Shown: positions 12,629 to 62,564 of the stretch, piece by piece | How positions within the stretch are numbered: position 1 is the stretch's first letter | Layout: each line of letters begins with the position of its first letter | Source: Aeromicrobium sp. IC_218 | GTDB taxonomy: Bacteria; Actinomycetota; Actinomycetes; Propionibacteriales; Nocardioidaceae | Length of the DNA: 64,000 nt | Direction of reading: 5' to 3' | Assembly (NCBI RefSeq): GCF_004336805.1 | Contig: NZ_SJXM01000017.1 | Coordinates: forward strand, 1 to 64,000 | Notes under the pieces: model-generated | What the model was told of the DNA's origin: nothing | The model's input: the letters and a program-made list of their open reading frames with translations, nothing else | Database searches by the model: none | Translations under genes and position numbers: made by a program

Positions 12629-16402
<3,774 letters not shown>

Positions 16403-16432
16403 GGAGGGTCCTCGCAGTCGTGGGGCAGTGCC

Positions 16433-16438
16433 ACGGTA
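16433..16438 (-). promoter_or_regulatory. Probable metH -10 box
   Basis: Minus-strand TACCGT about 30 bases upstream of the metH TTG, leaving a short leader that carries a GAGGA ribosome-binding site. No B12 riboswitch fits in the 167-bp gap. Confidence 0.35.
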
Positions 16439-16557
16439 CTCGCGGCGGGCGACTTCGCACGGCACCGTCTCTAGGCGTGGTCTCACGTGTCGGTCAGGTG
16501 TCTCGCCAGACGGACGCGCCGGTCCGTGCCGGCCGTCGGCGCCCCGGCCCGTCTCCG

Positions 16558-30785: not shown

Positions 30786-32147
30786 ATGGACCGGCGGATC
30801 TTCGGGATCGAGAACGAGTACGGGGTCACCTGCTCGTTCAAGGGCCAGCGCCGACTGTCGCCCGACGAGGTGGCGCGCTACCTGTTCCGTCGGGTGGTGT
30901 CGTGGGGGCGCAGCAGCAACGTGTTCCTCAAGAACGGCGCCCGGCTGTACCTGGACGTGGGCAGCCACCCCGAGTACGCGACGCCCGAGTGCGACGACAT
31001 CGTCGACCTGGTCACCCACGACCGCGCCGGCGAGCGCATCCTCGAGGGACTCATGCTCGACGCGCAGAACCGGCTCGCCGAGGACGGCGTCGAGGGCGAC
31101 ATCTACCTGTTCAAGAACAACACCGACTCGGCCGGCAACTCCTACGGCTGCCACGAGAACTACCTCGTGGGCCGGCAGGGGGAGTTCAGCCGGCTGGCCG
31201 ACGTCCTCATCCCGTTCCTGGTGTCGCGCCAGATCATCGTCGGCGCGGGCAAGGTGCAGCAGACGCCGCGCGGCACCGTGTTCTCGGTGAGTCAGCGGGC
31301 CGAGCACATCTGGGAGGGCGTCTCGAGCGCCACCACCCGGTCGCGGCCGATCATCAACACCCGCGACGAGCCGCACGCGGACGCCGAGCGCTACCGCCGG
31401 CTCCACGTCATCGTCGGCGACTCGAACATGAGCGAGACGACGACGATGCTCAAGGTCGCGTCCACCGACCTGGTGCTGCGGATGATCGAGGCCGGCGTCC
31501 CCATGCGCGACATGACGCTGGAGAACCCGATCCGGGCGATCCGCGAGATCGCCCACGACATGACCGGACGCCGCAAGGTGCAGCTGGCCAACGGCCGTGA
31601 GCTGTCGGCGCTGGAGATCCAGGCCGAGTACTTCTCCAAGGCCGCCGACTTCGTCGACCGCACCGGGCTGTCGTCGCCGACCCTGCTGCGTGCCCTCGAC
31701 CTGTGGGAGCGCACGCTCAAGGCGGTCGAGTCCGAGGACCTCTCGCTCGTGGAGCGCGAGATCGACTGGGTGATCAAGTACAAGCTGCTCGAGCGCTACC
31801 GCTCGACGCACGGCCTGACCTGGTCGGACGCGCGCATCGCCCAGCTCGACCTGGCCTATCACGACATCCGCCGCGACCGCGGCCTGTTCCACCTGCTCGA
31901 GCGGCGCGGCTCGGTCGCCCGCGTGTCGCGCGACCTGGACGTGTTCACCGCCAAGAGCGTCCCGCCGCAGACCACCCGCGCCCGCCTGCGCGGAGAGTTC
32001 ATCAAGCGCGCGCAAGAGCGCCGGCGCGACTTCACGGTCGACTGGGTGCACCTCAAGCTCAACGACCAGGCGCAGCGCACGGTGCTGTGCAAGGACCCGT
32101 TCCGGGCCCACGACGAGCGCGTCCAGAAGCTCATCGACGGCATGTGA
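30786..32147 (+). CDS. pafA: Pup ligase PafA
   Basis: 453 aa, usual length. N-terminal [14 protein letters not shown] carries the ATP/Mg-binding glutamates; [17 protein letters not shown] and [14 protein letters not shown] are shared with Dop. It phosphorylates the Pup C-terminal Glu and joins it to substrate lysines by an isopeptide bond. It has its own leaderless-type promoter rather than being coupled to prcA. Confidence 0.97.
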
Positions 32148-37070: not shown

Positions 37071-39794
37071 ATGAGCACGACGAGAAGTCCCGCCGAGGCC
37101 TACGCCCAGGCGCGGCGGGACCGGAAGCACCCCCATCTCGCCGAGTTCCGCGGCGGCTACCCGTTCGGGCTCGACCCGTTCCAGGAGGAGGCCTGCCGCC
37201 ACGTCGAGGACGGGTCGGGCGTGCTCGTCGCCGCCCCCACCGGTGCCGGCAAGACCGTCGTCGGCGAGTTCGCCGTGCACCTCGCGCTCGCCCGGGGCCA
37301 GAAGGCGTTCTACACGACACCGATCAAGGCGCTGTCGAACCAGAAGTTCCACGACCTGGTCGAGCGTCACGGCGCGGAGAACGTCGGCCTGCTGACCGGC
37401 GACAACTCGATCAACGGCGAGGCGCCGATCGTCGTCATGACGACCGAGGTGCTGCGCAACATGCTCTACGCGGGCAGCCGGACCCTCGTCGGTCTGGCCT
37501 TCGTCGTCATGGACGAGGTGCACTACCTGGCCGACCGGTTCCGCGGCGCGGTGTGGGAGGAGGTCATCATCAACCTCCCCGAGTCCGTCTCGGTCGTCGC
37601 GCTGTCGGCCACCGTGTCCAACGCCGAGGAGTTCGGCGACTGGCTCACCGAGGTGCGCGGCTCGAACGTCACCGTCATGGAGGAGCGCCGGCCGGTCCCG
37701 CTGCACCAGCACGTGCTCGTCGGACGCCGGATGTTCCCGCTGTTCGAGGACGACGGCACCACGGTCAACAAGGCGTTGGAGCGCGTGGCCCGCGAGGACT
37801 GGCAGCTCTCGCGCATCCCGCGTGACCGGCGCCCGGGCAAGGGCGGCAAGCGTCCGCACGCCAAGCGCTTCCACACGCCGAGCCGGCCCGACCTGGTGGC
37901 CAAGCTCGACTCCGAGGCCCTGCTCCCGGCCATCGTGTTCATCTTCAGCCGCGCGGGCTGCGACGCGGCGGTGCGCCAGTGCGCCGACGCGCGCCTGACG
38001 CTCACCACGCCCGAGGAGCGCGAGGAGATCCGTGGCTACGTCGACGCCGCGGTCTCCGAGCTGTCCGAGGACGACCTGCACGTCCTGGGCTACCACGACT
38101 TCGCCGAGTCGCTCGTGCGCGGCGTCGCGGCCCACCACGCCGGCGTGCTGCCGACGTTCAAGGAGTGCGTCGAGAAGCTGTTCAGCCGTGGCCTGGTGAA
38201 GGTCGTCTTCGCCACCGAGACGCTGGCCCTGGGCATCAACATGCCGGCCCGCTCGGTCGTGCTGGAGAAGCTGACCAAGTGGAACGGCGAGACCCACGCC
38301 GACGTGACGCCGGGGGAGTACACCCAGCTGACCGGGCGCGCGGGCCGCCGCGGCATCGACGTCGAGGGCCACGGGGTGGTGCTGTTCCAGCCCGGCCTCG
38401 ACCCGCGGCAGGTGGCTGGCCTCGCCTCGACCCGCACGTATCCCCTCAAGTCGAGCTTCAAGCCGTCCTACAACATGGCGGTCAACCTGGTGCACCAGGT
38501 CGGACGCTCGTCGGCCCGGGAGCTGCTGGAGCAGTCGTTCGCCCAGTTCCAGGCCGACCGCTCGGTGGTCGGCCTGGCCCGCCAGATCCACCAGGCCGAG
38601 GAGGCACTGGAGGGCTACGCCGAGGCCGCCACCTGCCACCTGGGCGACTTCATGGAGTACCAGGGGCTCCGGCGCCAGATCAGCGACCTCGAGGCCCAGG
38701 GCGCCCGCCGCCGCAAGGCGCAGGCACGCGAGCAGGTCGTCGACTCCCTGCTCGCGCTCAAGGTCGGCGACGTCATCGACGTGCCGGGGGGCAAGTTCTC
38801 CGGCCTGGCCGTGGTGCTCGACGGGGCCAGCCCGGCCGACCGCGACGGTCCGCGCCCGCTCGTGCTGACCGAGTCGCGGCACGCCAAGCGGCTGGGCACG
38901 ATCGACTTCCCGGTGCCGGCCGAGCCGCTGCTGCGCATGCGGGTGCCGCGCCAGTTCAACGCGCGCAACGCCCAGGCCCGGCGCGACCTGGCCAACACGC
39001 TGCGCCTGCAGGCCGACAATGCCGACTACCAGCGCACCCGCCAGCGTCCGCGGCCCGCACGCGACGGCCACGACGACCCGGAGATCGCCGAGCTGCGCCG
39101 CCGCATGAAGGACCACCCCTGCCACCAGTGCCCCGACCGGGAGTCGCACGCGCGGTGGGCGGAGCGGCACCTCAAGCTCGACCGCGACACGTCCAACCAG
39201 CGCCGCCGGATCGAGCAGCGCACCAACACCGTGGCCCGCGAGTTCGACCGCGTGTGCGAGGTGCTGGAGACGCTCGGCTACCTCGAGGGCGACACGGTCA
39301 CCGACGAGGGCCAGCGGCTGCAGCGGCTCTACAGCGAGTCCGACCTGCTCATCAGCGAGTGCCTGCGCCAGGGGCTGTGGAACGGGCTGGGCCCGGCGGA
39401 GCTGGCGGCGGTGCTGAGCGGCCTGACGTTCAGCAGCCGGGCCAACGAGGACACGCCCGCCCCGCGGTTCCCGAGCGACGGGCTGCGCGAGGTCGCGGTC
39501 GACATGGACCGGCTGGCCGGCGAGCTGGCGATGGTCGAGCGCGAGCACCGGCTGCGCTTCCTGCGCCCGCCGGACTTCGGCTTCGCCCACACCGCGTACC
39601 GCTGGGCGTCCGGTGCCGAGCTCGACGAGGTGCTCTACGAGGCCGACGTGGCCCCGGGCGACTTCGTCCGCTCGGTCAAGCAGCTCATCGACCTGACCGC
39701 GCAGGTGGCGGACGCTGCCGGTTCCGGCGACCTGGGGAAGACCGCCCGCGAGGCCGTGTCGCTGCTGCGTCACGGCGTCGTCGACACCGCCTGA
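37071..39794 (+). CDS. helY: HelY-like Ski2 family DEVH-box RNA helicase
   Basis: 907 aa. Walker A APTGAGKT, motif II DEVH (VVMDEVHYLADRF), SAT motif LSATVSNAEEF, and motif VI QLTGRAGRRGID. The C-terminal DSHCT-like helical domain follows. Family is Ski2/Mtr4-like, so RNA unwinding linked to decay is likely. Location after tatC matches Rv2092c in M. tuberculosis. Confidence 0.95.
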   Translation: MSTTRSPAEAYAQARRDRKHPHLAEFRGGYPFGLDPFQEEACRHVEDGSGVLVAAPTGAGKTVVGEFAVHLALARGQKAFYTTPIKALSNQKFHDLVERHGAENVGLLTGDNSINGEAPIVVMTTEVLRNMLYAGSRTLVGLAFVVMDEVHYLADRFRGAVWEEVIINLPESVSVVALSATVSNAEEFGDWLTEVRGSNVTVMEERRPVPLHQHVLVGRRMFPLFEDDGTTVNKALERVAREDWQLSRIPRDRRPGKGGKRPHAKRFHTPSRPDLVAKLDSEALLPAIVFIFSRAGCDAAVRQCADARLTLTTPEEREEIRGYVDAAVSELSEDDLHVLGYHDFAESLVRGVAAHHAGVLPTFKECVEKLFSRGLVKVVFATETLALGINMPARSVVLEKLTKWNGETHADVTPGEYTQLTGRAGRRGIDVEGHGVVLFQPGLDPRQVAGLASTRTYPLKSSFKPSYNMAVNLVHQVGRSSARELLEQSFAQFQADRSVVGLARQIHQAEEALEGYAEAATCHLGDFMEYQGLRRQISDLEAQGARRRKAQAREQVVDSLLALKVGDVIDVPGGKFSGLAVVLDGASPADRDGPRPLVLTESRHAKRLGTIDFPVPAEPLLRMRVPRQFNARNAQARRDLANTLRLQADNADYQRTRQRPRPARDGHDDPEIAELRRRMKDHPCHQCPDRESHARWAERHLKLDRDTSNQRRRIEQRTNTVAREFDRVCEVLETLGYLEGDTVTDEGQRLQRLYSESDLLISECLRQGLWNGLGPAELAAVLSGLTFSSRANEDTPAPRFPSDGLREVAVDMDRLAGELAMVEREHRLRFLRPPDFGFAHTAYRWASGAELDEVLYEADVAPGDFVRSVKQLIDLTAQVADAAGSGDLGKTAREAVSLLRHGVVDTA

Positions 39795-52435: not shown

Positions 52436-52645
52436 GTCGCTCGTCCGTTCCCCTCTGGACACCGCCCGGTCGCGGTGTCGACACGTCGACCCTACCGGCC
52501 CCGTCCGACGTCGGCGCCGTGTCCGGACCTCCTGGGACGATCGGACGGTCGCGCGCGAACCTGAGCCGCGGTCCCGTCGGACTCGCCCCGGCTGTCACCC
52601 GGGCCTGCGAGGATGCCTGCGACGTCCGCTCCCGAGAGGCAGGCC

Positions 52646-55024
<2,379 letters not shown>

Positions 55025-55909: not shown

Positions 55910-56761
55910 ATGGAGACGCGGGAGCTCAGGTACTTCGTCGCCGTCGCCGAGGAGCTGCACTTCGGACGCGCGGCCGAACGCCTCGGCATCGCCCAGCCGC
56001 CGCTGTCACGGGCGATCGCTCAGCTCGAGCGCCGGCTCGGCACGGTGCTGCTGGAGAGGTCGAGCCGGACGACGTCCCTCACGGAGGCCGGCCAGCTGCT
56101 GCTGCGCGAGGCCCGCGCCGCGCTGTCGGCCGTCGAGGCCGCCGAGCGACGCACCCGACGAGTCGGCCGAGCCGGTACCGGCCAGTCGGCGAGCCTGGTG
56201 CTCGTGACGAAGTCGGGAGCGTCCAGCGAGCTGCTCGCCAAGCTGCTCGACGCCTACGCGGCGGAGCCCGACGCTGTCGCCGTGGACGTGCAGCTGTGCG
56301 GCATCGGTGAGCAGGGACCGATGCTCCGCGACGGACGGGCCGACGTGGCGCTGCTGCACCTGCCGCACGACTCCGTCAGCGGCCTGGACGTCGAGGTTCT
56401 CGCCGAGGAGGTCCAGATGGTGCTGCTGCCCGCAGGGCACGACTGGACCGGCCGCGCGAGCGTCACGACCGCCGAGGTGGACGCCCTGACCGACCCGCCG
56501 CCGGCGCGCTGGCCGCGTCCGGACGGCACGTATCCCGACGGCGACGGACCCGAGGTCCGCGACCACACCCAGCTGCTGCAGCTCGTCGCGCTCGGACGCA
56601 CCTGCGTCGTGCTGCCGGAGTCCGCGCGGTCGCTGCTGCGCGACGGCATCGTCGCCGTCCCGATCTCGGACGCACCCCGCGTCACGACGGTGATCGCCTG
56701 GCCGCCGCACAGCCGCTCCGCCGGCGTCGCCTCGCTGGTACGGACGGCGCTGAGGCTCTAG
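55910..56761 (+). CDS. LysR family transcriptional regulator
   Basis: 283 aa. N-terminal HTH (ELRYFVAVAEELHFGRAAERL; PPLSRAIAQLERRLG) and a LysR substrate domain with VLVTKSGASSELLAKLL. It likely controls the divergent SDR gene and itself through the 55861-55875 palindrome. Effector unknown. Its 3' end lies 47 bp before the dif site. Confidence 0.93.
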   Translation: METRELRYFVAVAEELHFGRAAERLGIAQPPLSRAIAQLERRLGTVLLERSSRTTSLTEAGQLLLREARAALSAVEAAERRTRRVGRAGTGQSASLVLVTKSGASSELLAKLLDAYAAEPDAVAVDVQLCGIGEQGPMLRDGRADVALLHLPHDSVSGLDVEVLAEEVQMVLLPAGHDWTGRASVTTAEVDALTDPPPARWPRPDGTYPDGDGPEVRDHTQLLQLVALGRTCVVLPESARSLLRDGIVAVPISDAPRVTTVIAWPPHSRSAGVASLVRTALRL

Positions 56762-56808
56762 GAAGCGCTCAGGCGGTGCTGGCGCCCCTTCCGGAGACCC
56801 GTACCCAC

Positions 56809-56836
56809 TTGTCCGATAATGCACATTATGTCAACT
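56809..56836. other. dif: dif site (XerC/XerD chromosome dimer resolution)
   Basis: Arms TTGTCCGATAA (XerC side) and TTATGTCAACT (XerD side) flank the 6-bp centre TGCACA, giving the 11+6+11 layout of dif. The XerD arm matches the E. coli arm at 9 of 11 positions, and CCGATAA/TTATGTCAA cores fit the actinobacterial dif pattern as recalled. The site is an AT-rich island in 70% GC DNA between two converging genes. It implies that the replication terminus lies here. Confidence 0.85.
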
Positions 56837-56886
56837 TGTGCATCTTCAGGTCGACCTGGGCGGCCGACCAGCGCTCCCCTCGACGG

Positions 56887-57285
56887 TCACCACGGCGGCA
56901 ACGACAGCAGCGGATCGGGCACGAGCACGCTGCCGCGCGGATCGCGCCGCCGCACCGGTGACGCGTCCGGCTCGTCGTCCAGCGCAGCGAGCGCCAGGAC
57001 GAGCGCCGACAGCTCGCCGGCGTCGTACGCCTGCGCCGGGCACGTCTCGTCGCGGAACGTGCCGTCCGCGGCCGCCACGAGCCGGATGCGCGTCCCGTCG
57101 ACGGTGAGCACCCGCACGACGACGACGCGGGACGCCTGACGACGAGCCAGCGCGACGACCCGCTCCAGGACGTCCCTCGGGCACGGATGTCGCTGCGAGA
57201 CGCCGTCGACGGTCAGCACGGAGCGGCCGCTGGCGAAGAACGTCGCGGTGACGCGTGGTGCGGTGCGGGGCGGATCGTCCGTCAT
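56887..57285 (-). CDS. Hypothetical protein next to dif
   Basis: 132 aa from MTDDPPRT, with GGAGG upstream of the ATG. Mixed alpha/beta, about 75 residues of regular sequence (VTATFFASGRSVLTVDGVSQ; VVVVRVLTVDGTRIRLVAAADG) and a Pro/Arg-rich end. No family recognised. Its stop lies 50 bp from dif. Confidence 0.6.
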   Translation of the reverse strand: MTDDPPRTAPRVTATFFASGRSVLTVDGVSQRHPCPRDVLERVVALARRQASRVVVVRVLTVDGTRIRLVAAADGTFRDETCPAQAYDAGELSALVLALAALDDEPDASPVRRRDPRGSVLVPDPLLSLPPW

Positions 57286-60164: not shown

Positions 60165-62564
60165 TTGCGCCACCCGCTCGCCCGTCTGGTCGTCGTCGCC
60201 CTCGTCGCCGCCGGGCTCCCGCTCACCGGCTCGGCCGTCGCGTCGGCCGCTCCCGTCTCGCTCGCCTCCCCGTGCTCGGACCCGCTGGTCGACGAGGCGC
60301 AGCCCGCCGAGGACGCGCTCGCGGAGCTGCCGGACGCCGAGGTGGCCGCCGTCAACGACCTCTCGGTGCCCCGGCTCCGCGAGGAGGCCCGGGACGAGGC
60401 CCTGTGGGTCGATCCGTGCGGTCGGCTGTACGCGGTCGAGGAGGCGCCCGCCGAGCCCGAGCCCGCCGACGTCGCTCCCCCGGTGGCCCGGGCGGCGACC
60501 GATGCGTTCGCGCTGCACTCGCGCCCGGGGGCGCCGCGCACGATCTACCTGGACTTCACCGGGCACTCCCTGACCCGCACCGCGTGGAACAGCGAGCGGC
60601 CGACCATCACCGTCGGCGCGTGGTCGTCGGACGCCGACCCGGCGACGTTCTCCGCCGCCGAGCGCGCGACGGTCGCCGCGGTCTGGGAGTCGGTCGCGGC
60701 CGACTACGCGGCCTGGGACGTCGACGTGACCACCCAGGACCCCGGCGTCGACGCGCTCGTCCGCACCAGCACGTCCGACGCGCGGTACGGGATGCGCGTG
60801 CTCGTCGCGGGCGACAGTGACGGCATGCAGACCGAGTGCGGCTGCGGCGGCGTCGCGTTCGTCGGCGTCTTCGACCGCGTCGGCGGCGCCTACCAGCCGG
60901 CGCTCGTCTTCGGCCGGGTGCTGGGCTCGGCGAAGGCGATCGCCGAGGCCGCCTCGCACGAGGCCGGCCACACCTTCGGACTGTTCCACGACGGCGACGC
61001 CTCGGCGGCGTACCACGTCGGCACGCGGCCCTGGGCGCCGATCATGGGCGTCGGCTACTACCAGCCCGTGTCGCAGTGGAGCCACGGCGAGTACGCCGGC
61101 GCCACCAGCACCCAGGACGACACGGCGATCATCTCCTCGAGCCTGCCCCTGCTCCGGGACGACCACGCCGGGCCGGCGACCCTGGCCACGGCCACGCCGC
61201 TGACGTCCTCGGCCGCCGGCGTCGTCACCGGACCGGCGGACCAGGACTCGTTCGCGGTCGAGTCCCTCGGAGCGGTGACGGTCACCGCGACCCCCACGAG
61301 CGCGACGACCGACCTCGACGTGGAGCTCGTCGTCACCGACGCCTCGGGCGTCGTGCGCCAGAGGGTCAACCCGGCGGCCACCCGCGTGAGCGCGTCCGTG
61401 GCGAGCGGCCTGGGCGCCTCGGCGCAGCTGGCGGCCGGCCGCCACGTCGTCACGGTGCGGGGTGGCGCGGGGCCGGGCTACAGCGCGTACGGGTCGCTCG
61501 GCGCGTACCGCATCACCGCGACCGGCGAGGTGGCCGGAACGGTGCTGACCGCCGCACGGACGGTCGCCCCGGCCGTCGTCGGCCGGCCTTACACGGCCAC
61601 CGTCGTCACCGGCGGCACGCCGCCGCTCTCCTGGAGCGGTGCCGACGTGCCGCCCGGCCTCGTCTTCACCGACGACGGTCGCCTCACCGGCACCCCCACG
61701 GCCACGGCCGGCCCGAGCCCCCAGGTGCCGGTCGTCCGCGACGCCACCGGCCGCACGGTCGAGCTCGCCGCCTGGTCCGGCTTCGCGGTGGAGACGCCCC
61801 TGACCCCGATCGCGGCGTCGCTCCCCCGCGCGACCCGAGGACGTCCGTACGCCCACCTGCTCGGGGTGACGAGCGCACCCGCCGACGTGCGCTGGAGCGC
61901 GTCCGACCTGCCCACCGGGCTGGCCCTGGACACGGACGGACGCCTGTCGGGGACGCCGGCGCGGGCCGGCACCTCCACGGTCACGCTCACCGCGGCGAGC
62001 GGCCGCCAGAGCCGGACGCAGCGCGTGCCGCTGGTCGTCCAGGACGTCGTCGGAGTCAGCACGTCGAGCGTGCCGACCGCCGTGGTCGGCACGGCGTACC
62101 GGGCCCGGCTCGGCGCCACCGGCGGCGACGGGCGGTACCGCTGGACCGCCACCGGCCTTCCCGCCGGCCTGGCCCTGGCCGCGGACGGGACGCTCAGCGG
62201 CCGGCCCCGCGCCGTCGGCACCACCCGCGTCACCGTGACAGCGAGCAGCGCGGCCACCACCGCGACCCGTCAGGTCACCGTCGTCGTCCGCCGGACGGTC
62301 TCGGTGCGCACCCGCACGGTCCGGTCCGGGCGACTCGGTCGTGCCTACCGGTCGGACGTGAGGATCGACGGCGGACGGCCGACGTTCGTGTGGCGGGCGA
62401 CGGGCGTGCCCCGCGGCGTCCGCCTGGTGCCCACGCGGGCCGGGACACGCGCCACCCTGCAGGGTCGTCCGCGCCGGGCCGGCACCTACCGCGTGCGGGT
62501 GCGCGTGGCCGACGCCACCGGCCGCGCCGTGACGCGCACGCTGACCCTGCGCGTCCGCCGCTGA
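60165..62564 (+). CDS. Secreted metzincin-type protease with four Ig-like repeats
   Basis: 799 aa from TTG. The signal peptide (about residues 1-29, ending ASA) is followed by a protease domain with HEAGHTFGLFH, i.e. HExxHxxGxxH at 265-275, and a Met-turn IMGVGYY near 293. A beta-rich segment resembling a PPC domain (about 330-430) and four putative-Ig (He_PIG-like) repeats follow. The TTG is preferred over upstream in-frame GTGs because its AGGAG leader matches that of the downstream paralogue. Substrate unknown. Confidence 0.85.
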   Translation: MRHPLARLVVVALVAAGLPLTGSAVASAAPVSLASPCSDPLVDEAQPAEDALAELPDAEVAAVNDLSVPRLREEARDEALWVDPCGRLYAVEEAPAEPEPADVAPPVARAATDAFALHSRPGAPRTIYLDFTGHSLTRTAWNSERPTITVGAWSSDADPATFSAAERATVAAVWESVAADYAAWDVDVTTQDPGVDALVRTSTSDARYGMRVLVAGDSDGMQTECGCGGVAFVGVFDRVGGAYQPALVFGRVLGSAKAIAEAASHEAGHTFGLFHDGDASAAYHVGTRPWAPIMGVGYYQPVSQWSHGEYAGATSTQDDTAIISSSLPLLRDDHAGPATLATATPLTSSAAGVVTGPADQDSFAVESLGAVTVTATPTSATTDLDVELVVTDASGVVRQRVNPAATRVSASVASGLGASAQLAAGRHVVTVRGGAGPGYSAYGSLGAYRITATGEVAGTVLTAARTVAPAVVGRPYTATVVTGGTPPLSWSGADVPPGLVFTDDGRLTGTPTATAGPSPQVPVVRDATGRTVELAAWSGFAVETPLTPIAASLPRATRGRPYAHLLGVTSAPADVRWSASDLPTGLALDTDGRLSGTPARAGTSTVTLTAASGRQSRTQRVPLVVQDVVGVSTSSVPTAVVGTAYRARLGATGGDGRYRWTATGLPAGLALAADGTLSGRPRAVGTTRVTVTASSAATTATRQVTVVVRRTVSVRTRTVRSGRLGRAYRSDVRIDGGRPTFVWRATGVPRGVRLVPTRAGTRATLQGRPRRAGTYRVRVRVADATGRAVTRTLTLRVRR

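Follow-up and report, generated by a model that had tools for sequence, protein, structure and literature searches.

The 28-bp sequence TTGTCCGATAATGCACATTATGTCAACT, found on the plus strand at positions 56809..56836 of the window (the whole 64,000-nucleotide stretch of DNA analysed here), is almost certainly the chromosomal dif site of an Aeromicrobium species, with a probability that we put at about 0.97. We base this assignment on the facts that the sequence is present in a single copy, is conserved and lies opposite dnaA in the relatives, that the polarity of an oriented motif switches at it, and that XerC, XerD and an FtsK gamma domain are encoded in the genome. It is an ordinary dif site, part of a known system, and by itself of low to moderate interest.

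The site has a 6-bp centre between two 11-bp arms, i.e., a left, XerC-side arm (TTGTCCGATAA; 56809-56819), the central hexamer TGCACA (56820-56825), and a right, XerD-side arm (TTATGTCAACT; 56826-56836). This 11+6+11 layout fits the dif sites of the phylum. The arms have been assigned to XerC and XerD by analogy, taking the dif sites of E. coli and Frankia alni as models. The right arm is identical at 9 of 11 positions to the E. coli XerD arm; the layout and this identity, both already given in the preliminary description, hold. The likeness to the E. coli dif/XerCD-FtsK system covers the layout and the presence of XerC, XerD, and an FtsK gamma domain, whereas the left arm is unlike, and the KOPS motif is GGGNAGGG there while GGGGGAG carries the bias here. 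With the actinobacterial dif sites (F. alni, PMC3025954; Corynebacterium aurimucosum, PMC2830990) the site shares the 28-bp length, the 11+6+11 layout, the single copy, the location opposite oriC, and the position at the switch of GGGGGAG-type octamers. The predicted dif of F. alni (PMC3025954) has the same base as TTGTCCGATAATGCACATTATGTCAACT at 23 of 28 positions, and the whole core CCGATAATGCACATTATGTCAA is identical, but the outer arm bases differ (TTGT...CT versus CACG...GT). Our literature search found no paper pairing Aeromicrobium with the term "dif site".

The exact sequence occurs once, and it is the sole match at up to three mismatches both in the window, where 100 shuffles gave 0 matches, and in the whole 3,314,464-base genome. 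The search for a second copy proposed in the preliminary description gave none; the only other dif-like sites are two degenerate ones confined to contig C7, which is apparently a plasmid. Among the relatives, the core pattern CCGATAATNNNCATTATGTCAA was present with at most two mismatches in 58 of 59 genomes, nearly always once, and a reversed control of the pattern was never found in the same 59. Exact copies of TTGTCCGATAATGCACATTATGTCAACT were also present in Mycetocola reblochoni, which belongs to another order, and in six further Aeromicrobium records; the window was assigned to Aeromicrobium on this evidence. When the dif sites of the relatives were aligned side by side, they agreed across the 28 bp, and the adjoining bases varied by species. 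The dif itself is conserved but its neighbourhood is not, and the conservation stops sharply at the 28-bp edges. Just to the right of the site, the centre TGCACA is mirrored by TGTGCA (56820-56842: TGCACA-TTATGTCAACT-TGTGCA), probably by chance, since the mirror is absent as a conserved feature from the flanks of the relatives. A blastn search of dif and its flanks against phages, in which the first bases of the query were inexact, returned chance matches only.

The AT-rich island between converging genes, in which the site had been placed, is real but small: the GC content is 0.48 in the 60 bases over dif (56800-56859) against about 0.75 around it. The convergence stands on the left, where a plus-strand LysR-family regulator gene (55910..56761; Pfam HTH_1 and LysR_substrate) ends 47 bp before dif. 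It is weaker on the right, where the converging element is a minus-strand 132-aa ORF (56887..57285) that has no Pfam match. Further to the left, a plus-strand gene encoding an 803-aa UvrA-like ABC ATPase (52613..55024; Pfam ABC_tran) accompanies dif, with its relative orientation preserved, at 8 of the 16 Aeromicrobium dif loci examined. An intergenic, AT-rich sequence that adjoins LysR-type and XRE-cupin regulator genes could also be read as a promoter or operator of these regulators resembling dif by chance, but the probability of this explanation is negligible. The LysR gene runs into the 28-mer, and therefore its promoter is not located there; in other species the neighbours of the 28-mer are quite different; and neither the shuffles nor the reversed-pattern control produced a match. 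Conservation without conserved neighbours refutes a regulatory role as the explanation of the 28-mer.

Our own assembly comprises 25 contigs, and contig C8, which contains the window, has only 66,583 bases. Because of this fragmentation, the position of dif on the chromosome was inferred from the relatives. In all 13 single-contig Aeromicrobium chromosomes, the distance between dnaA and dif is 0.458-0.495 of the circle; were dif placed uniformly on the circle, such clustering would have a probability of about 1e-14, a figure that treats the genomes as independent although they are only partly so. The comparison with the dif sites of related genomes thus gave matching sites opposite dnaA in every one of these chromosomes. 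The strand of dif relative to dnaA is the same in 7 of them and opposite in 6, a mixture that suggests inversions of the terminus region in which dif was carried along.

In the relative G005, whose dif lies 51% of the way round from dnaA, the DNA from 67 to 6 kb from dif is collinear with the window genes at 1.5-55 kb, an M28 peptidase gene being the single exception to the order. The genes identified by Pfam as metH (12629-16486, minus strand), the Pup ligase gene pafA (30786-32147, plus strand), and a helY-type helicase gene (37071-39794, plus strand) are found 47.8, 31.9, and 25.4 kb from dif in G005, respectively, and the UvrA-like gene at 6 kb. Since the window is collinear with the DNA flanking dif in G005, the metH-proteasome-helY block can be placed within 50 kb of the terminus, and the earlier statement that this block lies near the terminus (25-48 kb from dif in G005) is borne out within the genus. 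The 13 single-contig relatives and the collinearity with G005 place dif in the terminus, opposite oriC. Together with the motif switch described below, the relatives also uphold the claim that the window spans the terminus, with the qualification that dif is the endpoint of segregation and that the replication forks need not meet exactly there.

Plain GC skew was rejected as a terminus locator, being too weak in the two sampled chromosomes: pooling the leading strand gave a skew of -0.003 for G005 and 0.007 for G018, i.e., weak and noisy in the genus. The skew profile of the window shows several sign changes and no clear extremum. By far the strongest strand-biased word in these two chromosomes is GGGGGAG, with leading:lagging counts of 247:10 and 92:2, respectively. 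The E. coli KOPS GGGNAGGG showed no consistent strand bias (72:66 and 40:25), and the Bacillus subtilis SRS GAGAAGGG showed a modest one only (27:15 and 12:7). In the window, 33 copies of GGGGGAG between 2021 and 55429 are all on the plus strand, with 0 on the minus strand, and point at dif from the left; five copies between 58394 and 61827 are all on the minus strand and point at it from the right. A sixth right-hand copy is located beyond the window at contig base 66553, also on the minus strand, so that 39 of 39 sites in contig C8 are concordant with dif. In G005 the change of polarity falls in the interval from -26 to +574 bp relative to dif, and one site alone deviates among all those within about 250 kb. 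Concordance was 198/200 over 16 Aeromicrobium dif loci, and 53/57, 67/68, and 60/61 in three other families of the order (180/186 in total).

Both the bias and the density of GGGGGAG in G005 fall away from dif, from 213:1 within 1 Mb to 34:9 beyond. A rise of bias and density toward the terminus distinguishes architecture imparting sequences (AIMS) from words like chi that simply have a strand bias (PMC5993296). GGGGGAG has the properties expected of a KOPS/AIMS motif, i.e., leading-strand bias, a density that increases toward the terminus, and a switch at dif. The motif is not new, since (T/C)GGGGGAG is known as an architecture imparting sequence from corynebacteria, where it placed dif in C. 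aurimucosum and C. resistens (PMC2830990, PMC3350403). The likeness to KOPS and AIMS lies in a short strand-biased motif that switches at dif, with the same octamer core as in Corynebacterium; the difference is that GGGGGAG, seen here in Aeromicrobium and in three related families of the order, is a putative FtsK-bound motif. We infer that it is read by FtsK. As a marker of the terminus its polarity is better here than plain GC skew, and the switch at dif is decisive.

The genome encodes exactly two recombinases of the phage-integrase family, on contigs C25 and C17. The former scored 336 bits with the XerD model, over the cut-off, and was taken as XerD; the latter scored 271 bits and was taken as XerC. 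No serine resolvase was found in the genome. A single FtsK gamma domain (85.6 bits) aligns with solved gamma domains, including 2ve8/2ve9, and the genome thus contains the cognate XerC, XerD, and FtsK gamma domain of a chromosomal dif. By homology with E. coli, the site would be bound and recombined by XerCD in an FtsK-dependent manner. A circular dimer would arise whenever sister chromosomes undergo an odd number of crossovers. At division, FtsK would load on the chromosome, be steered by the oriented GGGGGAG motifs converging on dif, and pair the two dif copies, its gamma domain activating XerD. XerD and then XerC would swap strands across the 6-bp centre, yielding two monomers.

The 132-aa ORF to the right of dif had no homolog in 35 relatives and no match in the plasmid and phage collections searched; its only homolog among 36 genomes is on contig C7 of the same strain, and the ORF is only a putative gene. 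A dif-like site lies about 870 bp to the left of the homolog (C7:65933-66310, minus strand, 43% identity), and their relative orientation is the same as that of dif and the ORF; the two ORFs possibly reflect an exchange between the chromosome and C7 near Xer sites. A tblastx comparison of the dif flank with C7 was set aside, being swamped by the GC-rich composition. The position of this homolog could be taken to mean that the 28-mer is an attachment site or remnant of a mobile element exploiting Xer (an IMEX or a plasmid) and not a resident dif. This is very improbable, because the 28-mer is single, with no second copy bordering an element, because the same site is found opposite dnaA in nearly all the relatives, and because the 28-mer marks the switch of the GGGGGAG polarity. 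Although an element could have used it, the 28-mer is the resident site.

Contig C7 has 69,434 bases, a GC content of 0.683, and ends that overlap by 127 bases, which is what a circular contig should show, and it is apparently a complete circular plasmid of about 69.3 kb. Its genes include one for a ParA-family protein, close to a GGGGGAG polarity switch at about 11.6 kb, and one for a relaxase (Pfam Relaxase) whose relatives are on MOBP-typed actinobacterial plasmids; C7 has no recombinase of its own. The two degenerate dif-like sites (61171-61192, minus strand, ATGGCCGATAATAGATCTTATGTCATGT; 65039-65060, plus strand, ACCGCCGATAGTGATCGTTATGTCAGAT) form an inverted pair inside a second GGGGGAG polarity switch (60351, plus, to 66676, minus), and 23 of 24 GGGGGAG sites are concordant (permutation P = 0.00045). 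C7 thus appears to be a circular replicon with dif-like sites within converging motifs. The centres of the pair, TAGATC and TGATCG, are unlike one another and also unlike the chromosomal TGCACA. Between the two sites (61212-64984; L115:13211-16983, plus strand) there are three ORFs, the second and third of which match RmrT and RmrA of PADLOC, while the first matches nothing in Pfam or PADLOC. Dif-like sites of the CCGATAACAGATCTTATGTCA type, with at most two mismatches from the minus-strand site of C7, were observed in five genomes of two families of the same order (f3 and f4; L156-L160).

A 77-kb contig of the relative G010 (C4) carries much of the C7 gene set and the same dif-like pair in the same kind of switch, with 33 of 33 GGGGGAG sites concordant. 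A 51-kb contig of G012 (C1), read over 40 kb, has one dif-like site. In a small comparison, four other actinobacterial MOBP plasmids showed no close dif-like site, and all have annotated recombinase-family genes. Since there is no resolvase in the genome, the action of the host XerCD at the dif-like sites would be the obvious means of dimer resolution for C7, and the layout of its sequence suggests that dimers of this mid-sized plasmid are resolved by FtsK/XerCD in the chromosomal manner. With other plasmid Xer sites (the Acinetobacter pdif modules, cer/psi, and the FtsK-controlled ones of enterobacterial megaplasmids; PMC11724359) C7 shares 28-bp dif-like sites and the lack of its own recombinase, but at 69 kb it is within the size range that in Enterobacteriaceae tends to lack such sites. 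There, plasmids of 30-100 kb tend to be without them, and the chromosome-like mode is the rule only above 250 kb (PMC11724359). A broader proposal, which could equally well prove right or wrong, is that mid-sized Aeromicrobium plasmids such as C7 and the G010 contig have the build of miniature chromosomes, with GGGGGAG motifs converging on an inverted dif-like pair. Such plasmids would be resolved by the host XerCD under FtsK, and recombination between them and the chromosomal dif would be prevented, although enterobacterial plasmids of this size rely on resolvases of their own.

The dif site narrows the segregation terminus of an Aeromicrobium chromosome down to 28 bp, and a strand count of GGGGGAG locates dif within a few kb from one contig in GC-rich, near-skewless actinobacteria. 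The lead offered by the plasmid C7 is more interesting than an ordinary chromosomal dif: if this reading is true, it would cast doubt on the size rule, worked out in enterobacteria, that says when a plasmid adopts chromosome-like dimer resolution.
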